Positions 4,324 through 50,951 of a stretch of DNA of 64,000 nt are shown piece after piece. A program made the translations under genes and the position numbers. Every line of letters starts with the position of its first letter. Position 1 is the first letter of the stretch. The notes beneath the pieces were generated by a model. It was not told the origin of the DNA. It was given only the letters and a program-made list of their open reading frames with translations, and made no database searches. The stretch comes from a bacterium (GTDB lineage: Bacteria; Myxococcota_A; UBA9160; UBA4427): the NCBI GenBank assembly GCA_024742285.1, contig JANSYR010000009.1, positions 124,001-188,000 on the forward strand. Direction: 5' to 3'.

Positions 4324-5301
4324 TCAGTCGGTCGGTGTCGCCCGTCGGCGCCGAGCGAGGGCAGCGACGTGGTCCGGTGTCGTCCCGCAGCAGCCGCCGA
4401 GGATGCGCAGCGTCGGCCGCGCGGGCCAGGGCGCCAGGCGGGCCGCGAAGGCGTCGGGCGAGAGGGCCTCGCTCCGCGAGAATCCGGTCTCCTCGTCGGG
4501 CTCGCCGAGATTGGGCGAGACGAGGAGCGGCGCATCGAGGGCCCCGAGGCATTCGAGGGAGGCGGGCAGCGTCGAGGGGGGCACGCAGTTCACGCCGACG
4601 GCGGCTGCGCCGGTGTCCAGGACCGTCCTTGCTGCGCGCGCGAGATCGTCGCCCGAGAGCAGACGACCCGGCGCCCAGGAGACGAACGAGACCACGAAGG
4701 GGAGGCCGCTCGCCGCGGCCGCCCGGGCGGCGCATTCCGCCTCCAGCGCGCTGTTCATCGTCTCGATCAACACGAGATCGACGCCCGCCTCGCCTAACAG
4801 GTCGACCTGGCGGCGATGTTCGCGGTCGAGCTCGTCGCGGGCGGGAACGCGCTCGGGCGCATAGCAGTCCTCGAGTGGCGGAAGCGAGCCTGCGACCCAG
4901 CGCGGTCCGGCGACGCCGGCATCCAGCACGGCGCGACGGACGAGCTCGACCGCGAGCCCGGTGAGCGCGCGGTCGCTCTCCGCGGGAAGGCCGGCGCGGT
5001 CCAGGGTGCGCGCCTGGGTACGGAACGTGTTCGCCGTGACGATTTCGGCGCCGGCCCGGAGATGCGCGCGGTGGATCGCCGCGACCGAGTCGGGGGCCTC
5101 GAGCAGAGCATGGGTCGACCAGAGCGGGAGCCCGGTCGGGATCCCGGCGCGCTCGAGCTCGGTTCCCGTCGCTCCATCGAGGAGCAGCGGCGGGCCGTCG
5201 CCGGAGAGACGCGCCGCCAGCGCTTCCGCACGCCTTCGCGTCCGGCCGGGATCGCGACCGGCAAGGGTCGTCCCATCTGCCCGATCCGACTGGGCTCGCA
5301 C
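4324..5301 (-). CDS. Homocysteine S-methyltransferase family protein
   Basis: A 325-residue TIM-barrel methyltransferase of the betaine-homocysteine / S-methylmethionine-homocysteine methyltransferase family. The N-terminal signature LLLDGATGTELERAG is present, as are the three zinc-ligand cysteines: GVNC at about 239 and GGCCGT at about 304-305 near the C-terminus. The methyl donor is not predictable (S-methylmethionine, betaine or another). The start is a GTG at 5301 because GGAGG lies at 5311-5315, nine bases away; the frame stays open far upstream but overlaps the phosphatase gene. It is divergent from the HAD phosphatase gene. Confidence 0.85.
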   Translation of the reverse strand: MRAQSDRADGTTLAGRDPGRTRRRAEALAARLSGDGPPLLLDGATGTELERAGIPTGLPLWSTHALLEAPDSVAAIHRAHLRAGAEIVTANTFRTQARTLDRAGLPAESDRALTGLAVELVRRAVLDAGVAGPRWVAGSLPPLEDCYAPERVPARDELDREHRRQVDLLGEAGVDLVLIETMNSALEAECAARAAAASGLPFVVSFVSWAPGRLLSGDDLARAARTVLDTGAAAVGVNCVPPSTLPASLECLGALDAPLLVSPNLGEPDEETGFSRSEALSPDAFAARLAPWPARPTLRILGGCCGTTPDHVAALARRRRATPTD

Positions 5302-5417
5302 CCTTCTGGTCCTCCGCGCCCCGCGCCCGCGTTCCCGTGGGAACCCGTTGCGACCGGGTTTTCGTTCCCGCCCGGGCGAGGATGCGCTACCCACCCAGCC
5401 GACGCGAGGACCCCGGA

Positions 5418-5462
5418 AATCGCGCACACGCGCCGGATCCGGGGGATCCCGGATTCGCGATT
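5418..5462. repeat. Nested inverted repeat in a divergent leader region
   Basis: AATCGCG at 5418-5424 is perfectly complementary to CGCGATT at 5456-5462. Inside it, CCGGATCC at about 5433-5440 pairs with GGATCCCGG at about 5444-5452 with one bulge. The 45-base element lies in the 246-base region between the divergent methyltransferase and phosphatase genes and would be in the 5' leader of one or both transcripts. Its consensus matches no methionine-related riboswitch that I know. Confidence 0.45.
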
Positions 5463-5547
5463 CGACGCCCCGCGCGGCCCGGCCGCGCCTGCCGTCCGCC
5501 CACGCTCCACGCGCTCCCATCCATCCACCCAGCCATCCGGTGAGATC

Positions 5548-6252
5548 TTGACCCAGGACACGCACAGCCTTCCCGCGGATCGACCGCTCGCGATCTTCTG
5601 CGACTTCGACGGGACCTTCTCGGTCCAGGACGTGGGGTCGACCCTCGCCCAGCAGCTCCTGCCCGAGCGCCGCGCCAATCTCTGGGAGCGCTTCGCCGAC
5701 GGTGAGTTCACCGCGTGGACCTACGTGATGGCGCTGCTCGACGGACTCGAGCTCCCGGAGAAGCAGCTCTACGAATTCCTCGAAACGATCGATCTCGACC
5801 CGGGCGCCGAAGACATGCTGGCGTGGTGCGAGGCCGAGGAAGTTCCCTTCCGGATCCTCTCCGACGGCTTCGACTGGAACCTCGAGCGGCTCCAGGAGAT
5901 CAACGGCGTGTCCTTCGAGTTCAACGCCAATCACCTCCGCTACGAAGGCCAGACCTGGCGGCTCTCGCCGGGACGACCGAACGAGGCCTGCGGCTGCGGG
6001 ACCGGCAGCTGCAAGCGCGGGCTGATCTCGACCTATCGCGCCGCGAATCCCGGTGCCTTCTGCGTGCACATCGGGAACGGCCGCGTCTCCGACCTGTGCG
6101 GCGCCCTCGAGGCCGACCTCGCCTACGCGAAGGACACCCTCGCGCCGGCGCTCGAGGAAGCGGACCATCCCTTCGTCGCGTTCGAGACGCTGCACGACGT
6201 GATCGCGCACCTACGCGAGCGTCGCGCCGCCCGTGAGGGTGGCAGCGAATGA
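5548..6252 (+). CDS. HAD-IB phosphatase, MtnX-like
   Basis: A 234-residue HAD-superfamily phosphatase. The nucleophile motif is CDFDGTFS (Asp19 and Asp21), motif II is RILSDGF, and the late acidic motif appears as HIGNGRVSDLCG. Overall order resembles MtnX/SerB-type phosphatases; MtnX acts in methionine salvage, which would fit the divergent homocysteine methyltransferase, but the substrate is an inference. Several Cys (ACGCGTGSCKRG) sit in the cap-proximal region. The TTG at 5548 is the only plausible start in frame. Its stop overlaps the next gene by four bases. Confidence 0.8.
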   Translation: MTQDTHSLPADRPLAIFCDFDGTFSVQDVGSTLAQQLLPERRANLWERFADGEFTAWTYVMALLDGLELPEKQLYEFLETIDLDPGAEDMLAWCEAEEVPFRILSDGFDWNLERLQEINGVSFEFNANHLRYEGQTWRLSPGRPNEACGCGTGSCKRGLISTYRAANPGAFCVHIGNGRVSDLCGALEADLAYAKDTLAPALEEADHPFVAFETLHDVIAHLRERRAAREGGSE

Positions 6253-7664
6253 GCGACGGGGCGCGGACGGGCGAGGCGGCCGCCGGCCAGCGGATCGCCG
6301 TGCTCGGCGCCGGCTTCGCGGGTCTTCGCGCGGCGACGACGCTTCGCGCGGCGGGGCATCGCGTCGAGGTCTTCGAGGCCCGTACGGCGGTCGGCGGGCG
6401 CGCGCGCGGCGAGTGGTGCGCCGGTCACTGGATGGACGGCAGCTGGCCGGTCCTCGGCGGTCGCGACGAAGCCCTCGCGCGCTTCGCCCGGGATCTCTCG
6501 GATCGTGGCGTCGGAGATCTGCTCACGCCGCTTCGCCCGGTGCAGACCGCCCTGCTTCGCGCCGGCGAGGCGCGGCCCGTCGACGGGTTGCAGCTGCGTG
6601 GCGTGGCGCGGATCCCGGGACCGCGGATCTGGGAACGGCCCAAGCTGCTGCGTTGGGGTCGGCTGATGGCTCGGTACGCGCCGCTGCTCGATGCGACCCA
6701 TCCCGAGCGGGCGGCGGACCTCGACTATCGGAGTCTCGCCGATCACGTGTCGCTCTACTTCGGTCGAGGCGCCCTCGAGTTCTGGCTCGCGCCGGAGGTC
6801 CAGAGCGTCTACGGCGATTCCGTCGACGAGCTCTCCCGCGTGGCGCTCCTCCAGCATGCGGCGGGCCAGGGCATCGGAGGTCGCCGTCCCGCGCCTCCCG
6901 GTCTCCCACGTCGCCCGCTGATCGAGCTCGCCCAGGCCGCCGCCGAGGGGCTCGAGATCGATCGCGCGACCCAGGTCCAGCGCGTCGACGAGCTCGCCGC
7001 CGGCGGCTATCGGCTCGAGCTGCTCGACGCCGACGGGCCGCGCGCGGAGTCGGGCTTCGACGCGACCGTGATCGCCGTCGGCGCGAGCGAGGCGGCGCGG
7101 ATCGCCGGGCCGCTGCTCACCCCGGCGGAGCGTGACTTCTTCGCCGCCGTGGAAGAGCGCCCGGTCGTGACCCTGGCGGTCGCACTCGAGGGAGTCCACT
7201 CGGGGCTGCCCCAGGAGATCCGCCTCCCGCGCCGGGAGGACTCGGCGATCGCGTCGATCGTGGTCGAGCCGGGGCAGAGCGGCGGCCGCGCACCAGAGGG
7301 TCGCAGCCAGCTCGTGATCCGCGCCCGCGACGCCTTCGCGGCGCGCTGGCGCGAGACGGCGAGCGACGTGGTCGCGAAGAACCTCCTCAGTTCTCTCGAG
7401 CTCGCGATGCCTGGAATCGGAGAGCGGGTCCGGACGACCCACGTCGGTCGCGCGAACCAGGCCTTCTTCGGCGTCGGCCACTACCGCGAGCTGGCGAATT
7501 TCGACCGGGTCCAGCGCGATCGGCGCAGTCTCGGCCGACGCGTCTACTACGCCGGTGACTACCTCGTCGGCCCGACCTTCGAGTCCGCGACCCGCGCGGG
7601 CCAGCGTGCGGCCGAGGCCCTGCTCTCGGATCTCGCTCGCGAAGGCGACGACCCGCTCGTCTAG
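6249..7664 (+). CDS. FAD-dependent amine-oxidase-type oxidoreductase
   Basis: A 471-residue flavoprotein. The dinucleotide-binding motif AVLGAGFAGLRAA lies at 17-29, followed by the acidic strand end (VEVFEART) and the GGRAR motif typical of protoporphyrinogen oxidase, phytoene desaturase and HpnE-like enzymes. The C-terminus has the second FAD motif (YYAGDYLVGPTFESATRAGQ). The substrate is unknown; a porphyrinogen, carotenoid or squalene-type polyene are the usual ones. It begins within the stop of the HAD gene (ATGA), so the two are translationally coupled. Confidence 0.82.
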   Translation: MSDGARTGEAAAGQRIAVLGAGFAGLRAATTLRAAGHRVEVFEARTAVGGRARGEWCAGHWMDGSWPVLGGRDEALARFARDLSDRGVGDLLTPLRPVQTALLRAGEARPVDGLQLRGVARIPGPRIWERPKLLRWGRLMARYAPLLDATHPERAADLDYRSLADHVSLYFGRGALEFWLAPEVQSVYGDSVDELSRVALLQHAAGQGIGGRRPAPPGLPRRPLIELAQAAAEGLEIDRATQVQRVDELAAGGYRLELLDADGPRAESGFDATVIAVGASEAARIAGPLLTPAERDFFAAVEERPVVTLAVALEGVHSGLPQEIRLPRREDSAIASIVVEPGQSGGRAPEGRSQLVIRARDAFAARWRETASDVVAKNLLSSLELAMPGIGERVRTTHVGRANQAFFGVGHYRELANFDRVQRDRRSLGRRVYYAGDYLVGPTFESATRAGQRAAEALLSDLAREGDDPLV

Positions 7665-48906: not shown

Positions 48907-49230
48907 CTAGTTGAGGCTCCGGTCTTTCCCGTAGGTGCCGTCCTCGAAGCGGTCGAAGAAGTGCTCGAGGAGCGGGTGGCGGATCGGGGCGGGGGACGGG
49001 TCCGCTTCGAGGTGGCGCTCCGCGACGTAGGTCGCGTGCTCCGCGCCATCCACGAGGACGTGATACCAGGGCTTGTCCTTCGGAGGACGCGAGCGGGCCA
49101 CCTGCTCGTACCACTCGTCGGTCCCGGAGAAGACCGGGTCGACGTCGACGATCACGCCGCGGTAGTCGAAGCGGAGGTGCCGAACGACCTGGCCGGGGCC
49201 GAAGCGCGCGTCGAAGTCGTGGTCGCTCAT
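48907..49230 (-). CDS. hspQ: Heat-shock protein HspQ / hemimethylated-DNA-binding YccV-like
   Basis: A 107-residue HspQ, which in E. coli is a specificity adaptor for the Lon protease and binds hemimethylated DNA. It shows the family pattern GQVVRHLRFDYRGVIVDVDP, KPWYHVLVDG and TYVAERHLE. The ATG at 49230 follows a GAGG site. Next upstream on the other strand is the RHH/zinc-ribbon gene. A -10-like TATCTT lies at 49281-49276 (minus strand). Confidence 0.9.
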   Translation of the reverse strand: MSDHDFDARFGPGQVVRHLRFDYRGVIVDVDPVFSGTDEWYEQVARSRPPKDKPWYHVLVDGAEHATYVAERHLEADPSPAPIRHPLLEHFFDRFEDGTYGKDRSLN

Positions 49231-49294
49231 GGTCGCCTCGCTCACCGAGGGGCCCCTCGGGTCGTGCTCTCGTGCAAGATAGCGGGGTTTGGCG

Positions 49295-49346
49295 GTGCCA
49301 GAAAAGAATGGCACTGGCATCTGGATCACAATGGATCACGTTGTGA
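49295..49346. promoter_or_regulatory. Two dyads in the hspQ/RHH-gene intergenic region
   Basis: Dyad 1 is GTGCCA (49295-49300) and TGGCAC (49309-49314), spaced eight bases. Dyad 2 is TCACAA (49326-49331) and TTGTGA (49341-49346), spaced nine, and overlaps an exact direct repeat GGATCAC (49323-49329 and 49333-49339) with a ten-base period. Dyad 2 ends four bases before the RHH gene start. Repeats phased by one helical turn are typical of ribbon-helix-helix operators. Confidence 0.5.
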
Positions 49347-49349
49347 GCC

Positions 49350-50051
49350 ATGACGAACGACAATCACGACCGACGACATGGATCCTGCGGCGGTGGCGCC
49401 CGGCGGCGGGGCCGCGACGGTGGGCGCAGCCGACGCCGAGAGCGCGAGGGCCGGGAAGGCCCGCGAAGCCAGCGCCGCGAGCGTAAGGAAAAGGTCCTGC
49501 ACACGCGGATCTCCGAGCAGCTCGCCGACGACATCCGACGCTTCGCCGAAGAGGTCCGGGTCCCCGCTTCGAACCTGGTCCGCAACGTCCTCGAAGAGGT
49601 CTTCACCGTGGCCGACTCGATCCAGGACGACGTCGGCGACCTGATGGACGATCTGGCGGCGGAAGCCGAGGGCGTCCGCGACCGCGTGTGGCGGCAGCAG
49701 CGTCGCCGGTCCCGCGCGCGCCGCCAGCGCGACGGCGACGCGGACGTAGAGGCAGAGTTCCGGCGTGACGAAGCAGCGGAGGCGGACGACGCCGGGCGCG
49801 TCGCTCCGCCGGAGGCGCCCGCCGAGCCGGAGGCCGAAGAAGCCCCGCCGATTCCGCCCGCTTCGCAGCTCTTCCCGGACGTCCTCGGCTGGCAGCCCCT
49901 CGTCCTCAATCGGGACCTGGCCTGCGGTCGTTGCGGCCTCGATCTCCGCGCAGGCGAGAGCGCCTTCCTCGGCATGGCCGCGGGGGGGCTGACGGAGACC
50001 GCCCTCTGCGGCCCCTGTGCCTCCGGGAGTACGGGGCGGCGCGGACGTTAG
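49350..50051 (+). CDS. Ribbon-helix-helix protein with C-terminal zinc ribbon
   Basis: A 233-residue protein. After a 40-residue Arg/Gly-rich N-terminus, residues about 51-86 (HTRISEQLADDIRRFAEE onward) match the ribbon-helix-helix DNA-binding fold. A long charged, Ala/Pro/Glu-rich linker follows, and the end holds two Cys pairs, C192-x2-C195 and C220-x2-C223 (CGRCG and CGPC), a probable zinc ribbon. It is likely a transcription factor that binds its own upstream dyads. No known family was recalled for the whole protein. The ATG lacks a clear ribosome site. Confidence 0.7.
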   Translation: MTNDNHDRRHGSCGGGARRRGRDGGRSRRREREGREGPRSQRRERKEKVLHTRISEQLADDIRRFAEEVRVPASNLVRNVLEEVFTVADSIQDDVGDLMDDLAAEAEGVRDRVWRQQRRRSRARRQRDGDADVEAEFRRDEAAEADDAGRVAPPEAPAEPEAEEAPPIPPASQLFPDVLGWQPLVLNRDLACGRCGLDLRAGESAFLGMAAGGLTETALCGPCASGSTGRRGR

Positions 50052-50096
50052 GCGGAGGCGCGGTCGCGGGGCGGAGGGGCGCTCGCGCTTCGCGGC

Positions 50097-50951
50097 CTAG
50101 CCCAGCACGAATCCGCAGACCGCGCGCTCGAACCCTTCGGGGTTGTCCGTCGCGACGGAGTGGGCCGCCTGGGGAACGACTTCGAGCTTCCCGTTCTGGA
50201 GCACGTCGTCGACCATCTTGTCCGCCGTGTCGGGTGCCAGGATGTCGGAGGCGGCGCCGCGGACCACGAGGGTCGGGCAGGGCACCTTCGCGAGGGCGTC
50301 CCACTGCTGCTGGATGAAGGCCTCCTCGGCCTTCTTCGCCGACTCGTCGTTCGGGCGATCGCCGCGGAGCTTCGGATCCATCTTGAGCTCGAAGAGATCG
50401 TCGTCCCTCTGCTTGAGCGCGTACTTCGCCATGCGCTGGAGGGCGGCGGGCTGGCCGGCGGGATAGTTGAGCGAGAGCATGCGCGCATACTCTTCGACGC
50501 TCGTGAAGACCGGGGCGCGCTGCTCCGACATCTCCTGGCCGATCCGCGAGGTTCCGCGGGCGTCGAGCTCGGGGCCTATATCGACGAGAACGAGGCCCGC
50601 CAGGCGTTCGGGGTGACGGCCCGCGAAGACGGTCGAGACCCGGCCACCCATCGAGAAGCCGATCAGTACGAAGCGGTCGATCCCGAAGTGGTCGAGGATC
50701 CGCTCGAGGTCGTCGGCCATGTCTTCCGGGTGGTAGCGACCCTCGGCGTCCCAGTCGGAGTCGCCGTGGCCCCGCTGGTCGACGGCGAGCACGCGATAGT
50801 GCTCGGCGACCGCCGGGACGAAGTCGTCCCAGAGATGGGCCTCGTTTCCGTGGCCGTGCAGCAGGACCATCGGCACGCCCTCGGTGCTCCATTCGAGCAC
50901 GTGGAGGGCGTTGTCGTGGCTTCCGGTGACGCGATGGGAGGTCGGTTCCAT
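50097..50951 (-). CDS. Alpha/beta-fold hydrolase
   Basis: A 284-residue alpha/beta hydrolase. The oxyanion region VLLHGHGNEAHLWDDF, the nucleophile elbow GFSMGG (Ser) and the late Asp and His (DILAPDTADK and PQAAHSVATDNP) complete a catalytic triad. The cap segment between is about 90 residues. Substrate unknown; esterase, lactonase and haloalkane-type relatives all share these motifs. There is no signal peptide. It is convergent with the RHH gene. Confidence 0.82.
   Translation of the reverse strand: MEPTSHRVTGSHDNALHVLEWSTEGVPMVLLHGHGNEAHLWDDFVPAVAEHYRVLAVDQRGHGDSDWDAEGRYHPEDMADDLERILDHFGIDRFVLIGFSMGGRVSTVFAGRHPERLAGLVLVDIGPELDARGTSRIGQEMSEQRAPVFTSVEEYARMLSLNYPAGQPAALQRMAKYALKQRDDDLFELKMDPKLRGDRPNDESAKKAEEAFIQQQWDALAKVPCPTLVVRGAASDILAPDTADKMVDDVLQNGKLEVVPQAAHSVATDNPEGFERAVCGFVLG

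Follow-up and report, generated by a model that had tools for sequence, protein, structure and literature searches.

Introduction

The omega/ParB protein of plasmid pSM19035 is a ribbon-helix-helix (RHH) protein whose dimers bind repeated half-sites over a promoter. The published account gives the half-site as 5'-WATCACW-3' and places it, as direct or inverted tandem heptads, over the protein's own promoter; the heptads are contiguous, follow one another with a 7-bp step in 7-10 copies, and serve as a plasmid centromere with ParA (PMC9499535). CdbA and CdbB of Myxococcus xanthus are RHH proteins of 67 and 86 aa that recognize a direct repeat one helical turn apart, and their description presents them as nucleoid-associated, c-di-GMP-binding proteins with a GC-rich site and over 500 sites rather than as classical repressors (PMC7156744). 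PhaR is reported to be a repressor of a storage-linked gene that is released by binding the granule (PMC3079617).

Here we analysed a gene in a 64,000-nucleotide stretch of bacterial DNA (contig JANSYR010000009.1 of assembly GCA_024742285.1; hereafter the window, in which positions are counted from its first letter). The original prediction, made from the sequence, was that its product joins an RHH domain to a four-Cys zinc ribbon through a long charged linker, and that a self-operator-like site lies directly before its start. In a search of non-subscription literature, in which CdbA and CdbB were the relevant RHH proteins of Myxococcota, we found no published account of an RHH-zinc-ribbon family, and the RHH / Cys-domain family appears to be undescribed.

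Results

An RHH domain, a long helix and a variable Cys domain

The gene lies at 49350-50051 on the forward strand and encodes a protein of 233 aa; no Pfam or NCBIfam model matches it at cutoff, and all Pfam matches are below the curated cutoffs. When the RHH cores of 25 diverse family members were compared with Pfam (E up to 0.1), we found that CopG_antitoxin matched 22 of the 25 cores and RHH_5 matched 17, followed by RHH_3 and RHH_1 (10 each) and NikA-like (7), with best E values of 1.8e-6 to 7e-4. The cores are also weakly similar to NikA (2ba3), DinJ and VapB26 in the PDB. Together with the helices of an AlphaFold2 model (m059d7ff48261), these matches support the predicted RHH domain, which spans residues about 46-90 (49485-49619, forward strand).

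In this model (39 homologues aligned in A1, which excludes L027 with its GYF_2 tail, L030 with a frame change or other tail, and L046 with a cut tail), helix A covers residues 54-69 and helix B, the second RHH helix prolonged, runs as one unbroken long helix from residue 73 to 145 (49566-49784, forward strand). What had been read as a long charged linker is thus in part a long helix. Residues 180-219 of the C-terminal beta domain have pLDDT above 90 and residues 1-46 are mostly low. The monomer model does not resolve the ribbon strand, and the VIA fold-match list, filled by the C-terminal domain and without RHH chains, is uninformative on the RHH part. H51 and R53 are the RHH strand residues at the predicted base-contact places. 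R53 is invariant in A3 (59 of 59 rows, made up of the window protein, 19 hand-picked nearer homologues and 39 of 40 distant loci, with L142 out) and aligns with a NikA arginine; position 51 presumably corresponds to N11 of Arc, a base-contacting residue.

The C-terminal beta domain (49863-50027, forward strand) was placed by pLDDT, a weak fold match and the Cys pattern, and it carries two CxxC pairs (C192, C195, C220 and C223). It weakly resembles the C1 domain 4b6d (Z 5.3, rmsd 2.2 over 47 residues) and PARP-1 fingers (Z 4-5); the best Foldseek E for the domain is 0.65. Across 134 homologues, all four Cys are kept in 89, part of them is lost or the pattern is different in 42, and 3 are without the domain or cut; C192 is kept in every row of A3 (59 of 59), and the tree shows recurrent Cys loss with 7 changes. 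The four Cys of the predicted zinc ribbon are present in the window protein, but the zinc site is variable and does not define the family, and the repeated loss weakens zinc sensing as the family's core. The Cys domain of L027 is exchanged for a GYF_2 domain, which Pfam recognizes (PF14237, E 9e-16); by eye, the tails of L168 and L169 resemble it.

Homologues at E up to 1e-3 were found in 35 of 60 genomes in a search of relatives and, phylum-wide, in 83 of 282, the window's own genome included in each; for many of the distant phylum homologues the similarity lies mainly in the RHH part. When named genomes were scanned with A3, 80 loci were returned; most belong to Myxococcota/Deltaproteobacteria MAGs, and Alcanivorax and Alloalcanivorax (Gammaproteobacteria) are represented as well. 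The closest relative with a name is 'Myxococcota bacterium isolate PW6.metabat2.187', at 62% over query residues 45-227.

Tandem heptamers before the start codon

Directly upstream of the gene, the window reads GGATCAC-AAT-GGATCAC-GTT-GTGAGCC-ATG. The first heptamer, GGATCAC at 49323-49329 (forward strand), agrees with the family motif; it is repeated 10 bp on at 49333-49339 (forward strand), and a third, inverted heptamer at 49343-49349 (reverse strand; GTGAGCC on the forward strand) abuts the start codon at 49350. The letters are as originally described, both for the repeat and for the dyad TCACAA-N9-TTGTGA at 49326-49346, which joins half-sites 1 and 3. This dyad has 0 mismatches and is the sole match in the 64 kb at up to 2 mismatches, a tolerance at which at least one match was found in 20 of 100 shuffles. 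The best palindrome is the inner GATCAC-GTT-GTGAGC within 49334-49350. A second dyad, GTGCCA-N8-TGGCAC at 49295-49314, had at least one match at up to 2 mismatches in 70 of 100 shuffles. Taken by itself, the window does not put either dyad strongly beyond chance, and it is conservation that decides.

A genome search for the repeats had been proposed as a check. In the genome to which the window belongs, the composite pattern GGATCACNNTGKATCACNNTGTGANNC (up to 3 mismatches) has a single occurrence, at this operator and promoter, as compared to 0 for the control. No sigma-70 promoter over the tool threshold was found at 49200-50140.

The operator is conserved upstream of homologues

For 42 homologues we searched the 110-bp upstream regions by EM, with L035 (C-terminal part at a contig end) left out beforehand. 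Start codons were chosen by hand, mostly as the last ATG before the conserved core, with L013 and L034 (GTG) as exceptions. The de novo motif is the 17-mer TATCACGTTGTGATACA (21.3 bits), with a log-likelihood of 443 as compared to 58.4, 60.7 and 62.6 in three shuffled sets. Its best match in the window's upstream region is at 49334-49350 (no strand assigned; 17.7 bits), -16 from the ATG. The half-site TATCACA (at most 1 mismatch) is present in all 42 upstream regions with a mean of 1.93 per region, and two or more are present in 29, whereas 178 control regions taken from these loci average 0.034 and 2100 shuffles average 0.185. Half-sites are most often offset from one another by 10, 8 (inverted pairs in scan register) or 20 bp. 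In most homologues no more than 30 bp separate the operator from the start codon; half-sites lie at -26, -16 or -18, and -8 in many, often at -26 and -16. The operator lies further upstream in several homologues (e.g. L009, L016, L017, L020, L021 and L023).

A promoter-like pair fitting a leaderless start is present in 16 of the 42 homologues as compared to 3% of shuffles, and only 6 of the 42 have a Shine-Dalgarno-like word. In many distant loci (e.g. L113, L116, L121, L122 and L130), a GTG start apparently lies within the last heptamer (GTGACACA); by eye, translation of these homologues begins V-T-Q or V-T-H (start as M).

When we counted heptamers in 134 distinct homologues (identical protein tails merged; L027, L030 and L035 not scored), a heptamer of the listed classes was near the gene in 129 and none in 5. 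Sorted by residue 51, the heptamer-bearing loci are 98 of 100 with H51, 30 of 33 with Q51 and the 1 of 1 with N51. H51 loci carry GTATCAC/GTGATAC (124 sites) and GTGACAC/GTGTCAC (88), and Q51 loci carry GTAATAC/GTATTAC (21), GTACTAC/GTAGTAC (12) and, once, GTATCAC. GTATCAC or GTGATAC is found in 74 of 100 H loci as compared to 1 of 33 Q loci (p 9e-14; under broader class scoring, 24 of 134 loci, 16 H and 8 Q, are tied or have neither class), and H and Q separate only once on the tree, its supported branches giving one independent pair, so the match between residue 51 and operator is a clade-level difference and not independent evidence. We rejected this covariation as proof of a contact since it lies on one tree branch only. 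The operator is missing at some Q51 paralogues (L124, L125, L134 and L141). Directly upstream of operator-less Q51 paralogues there is a gene for a small helical protein of ~90 aa without a family (L226 8512-8781, reverse strand; L227 8919-9191, reverse strand; L134 1146-1538, forward strand), and at L226 an alpha/beta-hydrolase gene lies downstream of the paralogue.

Genome-wide scans place the operator at the family's own promoters

Site alignments kept 34 of the 42 best sites (A2) and 42 of 60 (A5), with duplicates and weak ones excluded. Model R1 holds 34 sites from the window's class and model R2 holds 42 distant sites; in each genome at most 150 candidates were scored. With R1, 18 of 20 genomes of the window's class had a match, and in 18 of 18 the best match was at the homologue's own promoter, with only four weak other places among the candidates scored. 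The own-promoter matches within this class are partly so by construction, and the scarcity of others is therefore the informative part. The operator is degenerate in the window's own genome, with no R1 match at E up to 10 there (G000), nor in G044.

Out of sample, in 20 genomes of other classes that supplied none of the sites, R1 found a match in 17. In 15 of these 17 the top match lies at the promoter of the homologue itself; in the remaining two, G064 and G143, it lies at the promoter of an alpha/beta-hydrolase gene. R2 was scanned on 39 genomes, many of which supplied sites, and gave a match at E up to 3 in 34; the best was at the own promoter in 31, with G080, G157 and G296 as exceptions. 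Alcanivorax sp. ih1 (Gammaproteobacteria) carries a variant of the site, for which a search of its genome at up to 3 mismatches gave a single match, as compared to 3 for a control pattern. Thus, footprinting across homologues, the other check proposed at the outset, and the genome-wide scans strongly support the self-operator-like site.

A conserved repeat in this position could also serve another regulator, or be an element of the promoter, with the RHH protein acting elsewhere. In many homologues the operator extends over the -10 region and the start, and the leaderless promoter-like pair is far more frequent than in shuffles, so promoter function could account for some of the conservation. 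In contrast, the site tracks the RHH gene family genome-wide, as in the 15 of 17 out-of-sample top matches, and does so in two phyla and beside varied neighbours; operator type tracks protein clade; and WATCACW-like tandem heptamers over a promoter are the kind of site that an RHH protein uses, as in omega/ParB (PMC9499535). On this evidence we consider another regulator's site or a promoter element improbable.

hspQ, the second dyad and recurring neighbours

The divergent neighbour of the RHH gene is hspQ (YccV; 48907-49230, reverse strand; TIGR02097 at 96.8 bits, cutoff 38.05), whose start is 120 bp from the RHH gene start. The site had been suggested to control hspQ as well, and the protein might even be a repressor of divergent hspQ whose autoregulation is a side effect: in 9 of 42 loci hspQ is divergent and less than 200 bp away (67-196 bp). 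But the operator of these nine loci is found on the side of the RHH gene start and not of hspQ, and in the other 33, where hspQ was not seen (some loci are short), the operator is still kept. Control of hspQ is therefore unsupported as a rule, hspQ was rejected as a general target, and we regard a dedicated hspQ repressor as very improbable. The second dyad, although its letters are real, is not conserved upstream of homologues: both arms are present only in the window, and a related TGGCATTG stands at -41 in the nearest homologues, L007 and L008. We rejected it as an operator.

Among neighbouring ORFs of 90 codons or more, only three families recur in at least 6 loci, namely an ABC1 kinase (22), a putative PLP/aldolase-like enzyme (8) and a branched-chain aminotransferase-like enzyme (6). 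In loci of the window's order the PLP/aldolase-like gene follows the RHH gene in 8, and the aminotransferase-like gene precedes it in 6 (L024, L025, L026, L028, L031, L039, L042 and L047 are the loci listed for the two). Weak Pfam similarity to the CopG, FitA, HicB and MazE-like antitoxin RHH domains would allow the protein to be the antitoxin of a toxin-antitoxin pair, and RHH antitoxins autorepress too, but there is no conserved small partner gene among the recurring neighbours of 90 codons or more, and we regard this as very improbable.

The operator at hydrolase and kinase genes

We found the operator at the starts of alpha/beta-hydrolase genes, in intergenic positions, in 6 genomes (L241/G293, L242/G143, L244/G064, L250/G183, L252/G178 and L262/G093). 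These hydrolases are 33-76% mutually identical where aligned and have an Arg-rich C-terminal tail; the Pfam check covered four of the six, and the four tested match no named NCBIfam group at cutoff. The operator is also found before ABC1/UbiB-type kinase genes in 3 genomes (L240/G211, L256/G124 and L271/G150). PF03109 matches the L256 kinase with E 6e-63 and the L271 kinase with E 4e-61, and the L240 kinase, which is cut by the contig end, was identified by 52% identity to that of L256 over 130 residues; these ABC1-type kinases are below the NCBIfam UbiB cutoff. A further site in G150 (L261) lies before an 86-aa helical protein without a family. Of the 134 loci, 22 have a kinase of the ABC1 cluster (blast cluster) beside the RHH gene itself, and in 21 of these the kinase gene lies downstream in the same orientation; the loci come from Myxococcota and Alcanivorax. 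The L192 kinase (4579-6372) matches PF03109 with E 2.5e-67.

In genomes of the window's class, there is no second strong operator among the candidates scored with R1, and ABC1 proteins from 14 genomes of this class share only 25-37% identity with the L271 kinase. In the window's clade the regulon thus seems to be reduced to the RHH gene itself, the only target seen there.

Secondary sites inside coding sequence were set aside as chance (L243, L246, L247, L249, L253, L254, L255, L257, L258, L259 and L264-L269). At L255 (G218:C235) and L269 (G080:C66), such chance operator-like matches repeat in long ORFs with repeated Cys motifs that look multihaem-like by eye. Two other secondary sites, ambiguous like that of L260, lie over ORF ends (L251) and about 250 bp from the next ORF (L263).

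Discussion

Taken together, these data suggest, with a probability that we put at roughly 85%, that a sequence-specific RHH DNA-binding protein represses its own promoter. The sequences are best read as a family of autorepressors whose regulon is small and varies between clades. We infer that the protein binds directly, represses rather than activates, and acts as dimers of dimers. RHH dimers would put their beta-ribbons into GTATCAC / GTGATAC heptamers every 10 bp, direct or inverted, so that all heptamers would lie on one face of the DNA just ahead of the start codon. Many promoters of the family are seemingly leaderless, and the operator would then also cover the transcription start. In other Myxococcota, the same operator would also control ABC1/UbiB-type kinase and alpha/beta-hydrolase genes.

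The RHH part and the operator are the constant pair, and it is the C-terminal module that changes, in keeping with an effector module carried by an autorepressor. Repression would be lifted by a signal or partner contact received through the long helix and the C-terminal domain.

PhaR belongs to a different DNA-binding family from RHH. By analogy with it, the RHH family of Myxococcota and Alcanivorax might sense storage lipid or polyester as a PhaR counterpart with a residue-51 operator code, an idea that we hold to be rather doubtful. Contact with the granule, or with a partner on it, would be made through the long helix and C-terminal domain, and the operators so freed would be those of the protein's own gene, the ABC1-type kinase, the alpha/beta-hydrolase and the small helical proteins; H51 with GTATCAC and Q51 with GTAATAC would keep paralogues apart. 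Only the content of the regulon is suggestive here, and no phasin or PHA depolymerase was found above cutoff in Pfam or NCBIfam.

Under the autorepressor reading, an unannotated ORF would become a family with a readable operator, whose targets could be searched for from DNA in any myxobacterial genome. The recurring ABC1-type kinase and hydrolase targets may be a first handle on what the RHH family senses. To our knowledge, the signals of ABC1/UbiB-type kinases in bacteria are unclear, and a dedicated repressor over such a kinase would offer testable ground.

How does the family compare with known systems? RHH antitoxins and NikA/CopG share the RHH domain and typically autoregulate, and the window protein's matches to their Pfam models stay below the curated cutoffs. 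The likeness to PhaR is one of logic only. Like CdbA and CdbB, the window protein is an RHH protein of Myxococcota with repeats one turn apart. Unlike them, with sizes that leave no room for a long helix or Cys domain, it has 233 aa and an operator unique in its genome at up to 3 mismatches; judged by length and site number, it does not fit the CdbA pattern of a short protein with GC-rich sites genome-wide. Unlike omega/ParB of pSM19035, the window family has a 10-bp step and about 2-4 copies instead of contiguous 7-bp heptads (direct repeats at 10 bp, inverted pairs offset by 8 in scan register) as well as a fused C-terminal Cys domain, and there is no ParA partner among the recurring neighbours of the RHH gene. 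Like omega/ParB, it has a half-site, TATCACA, that fits WATCACW, in direct or inverted tandem heptamers over a promoter.
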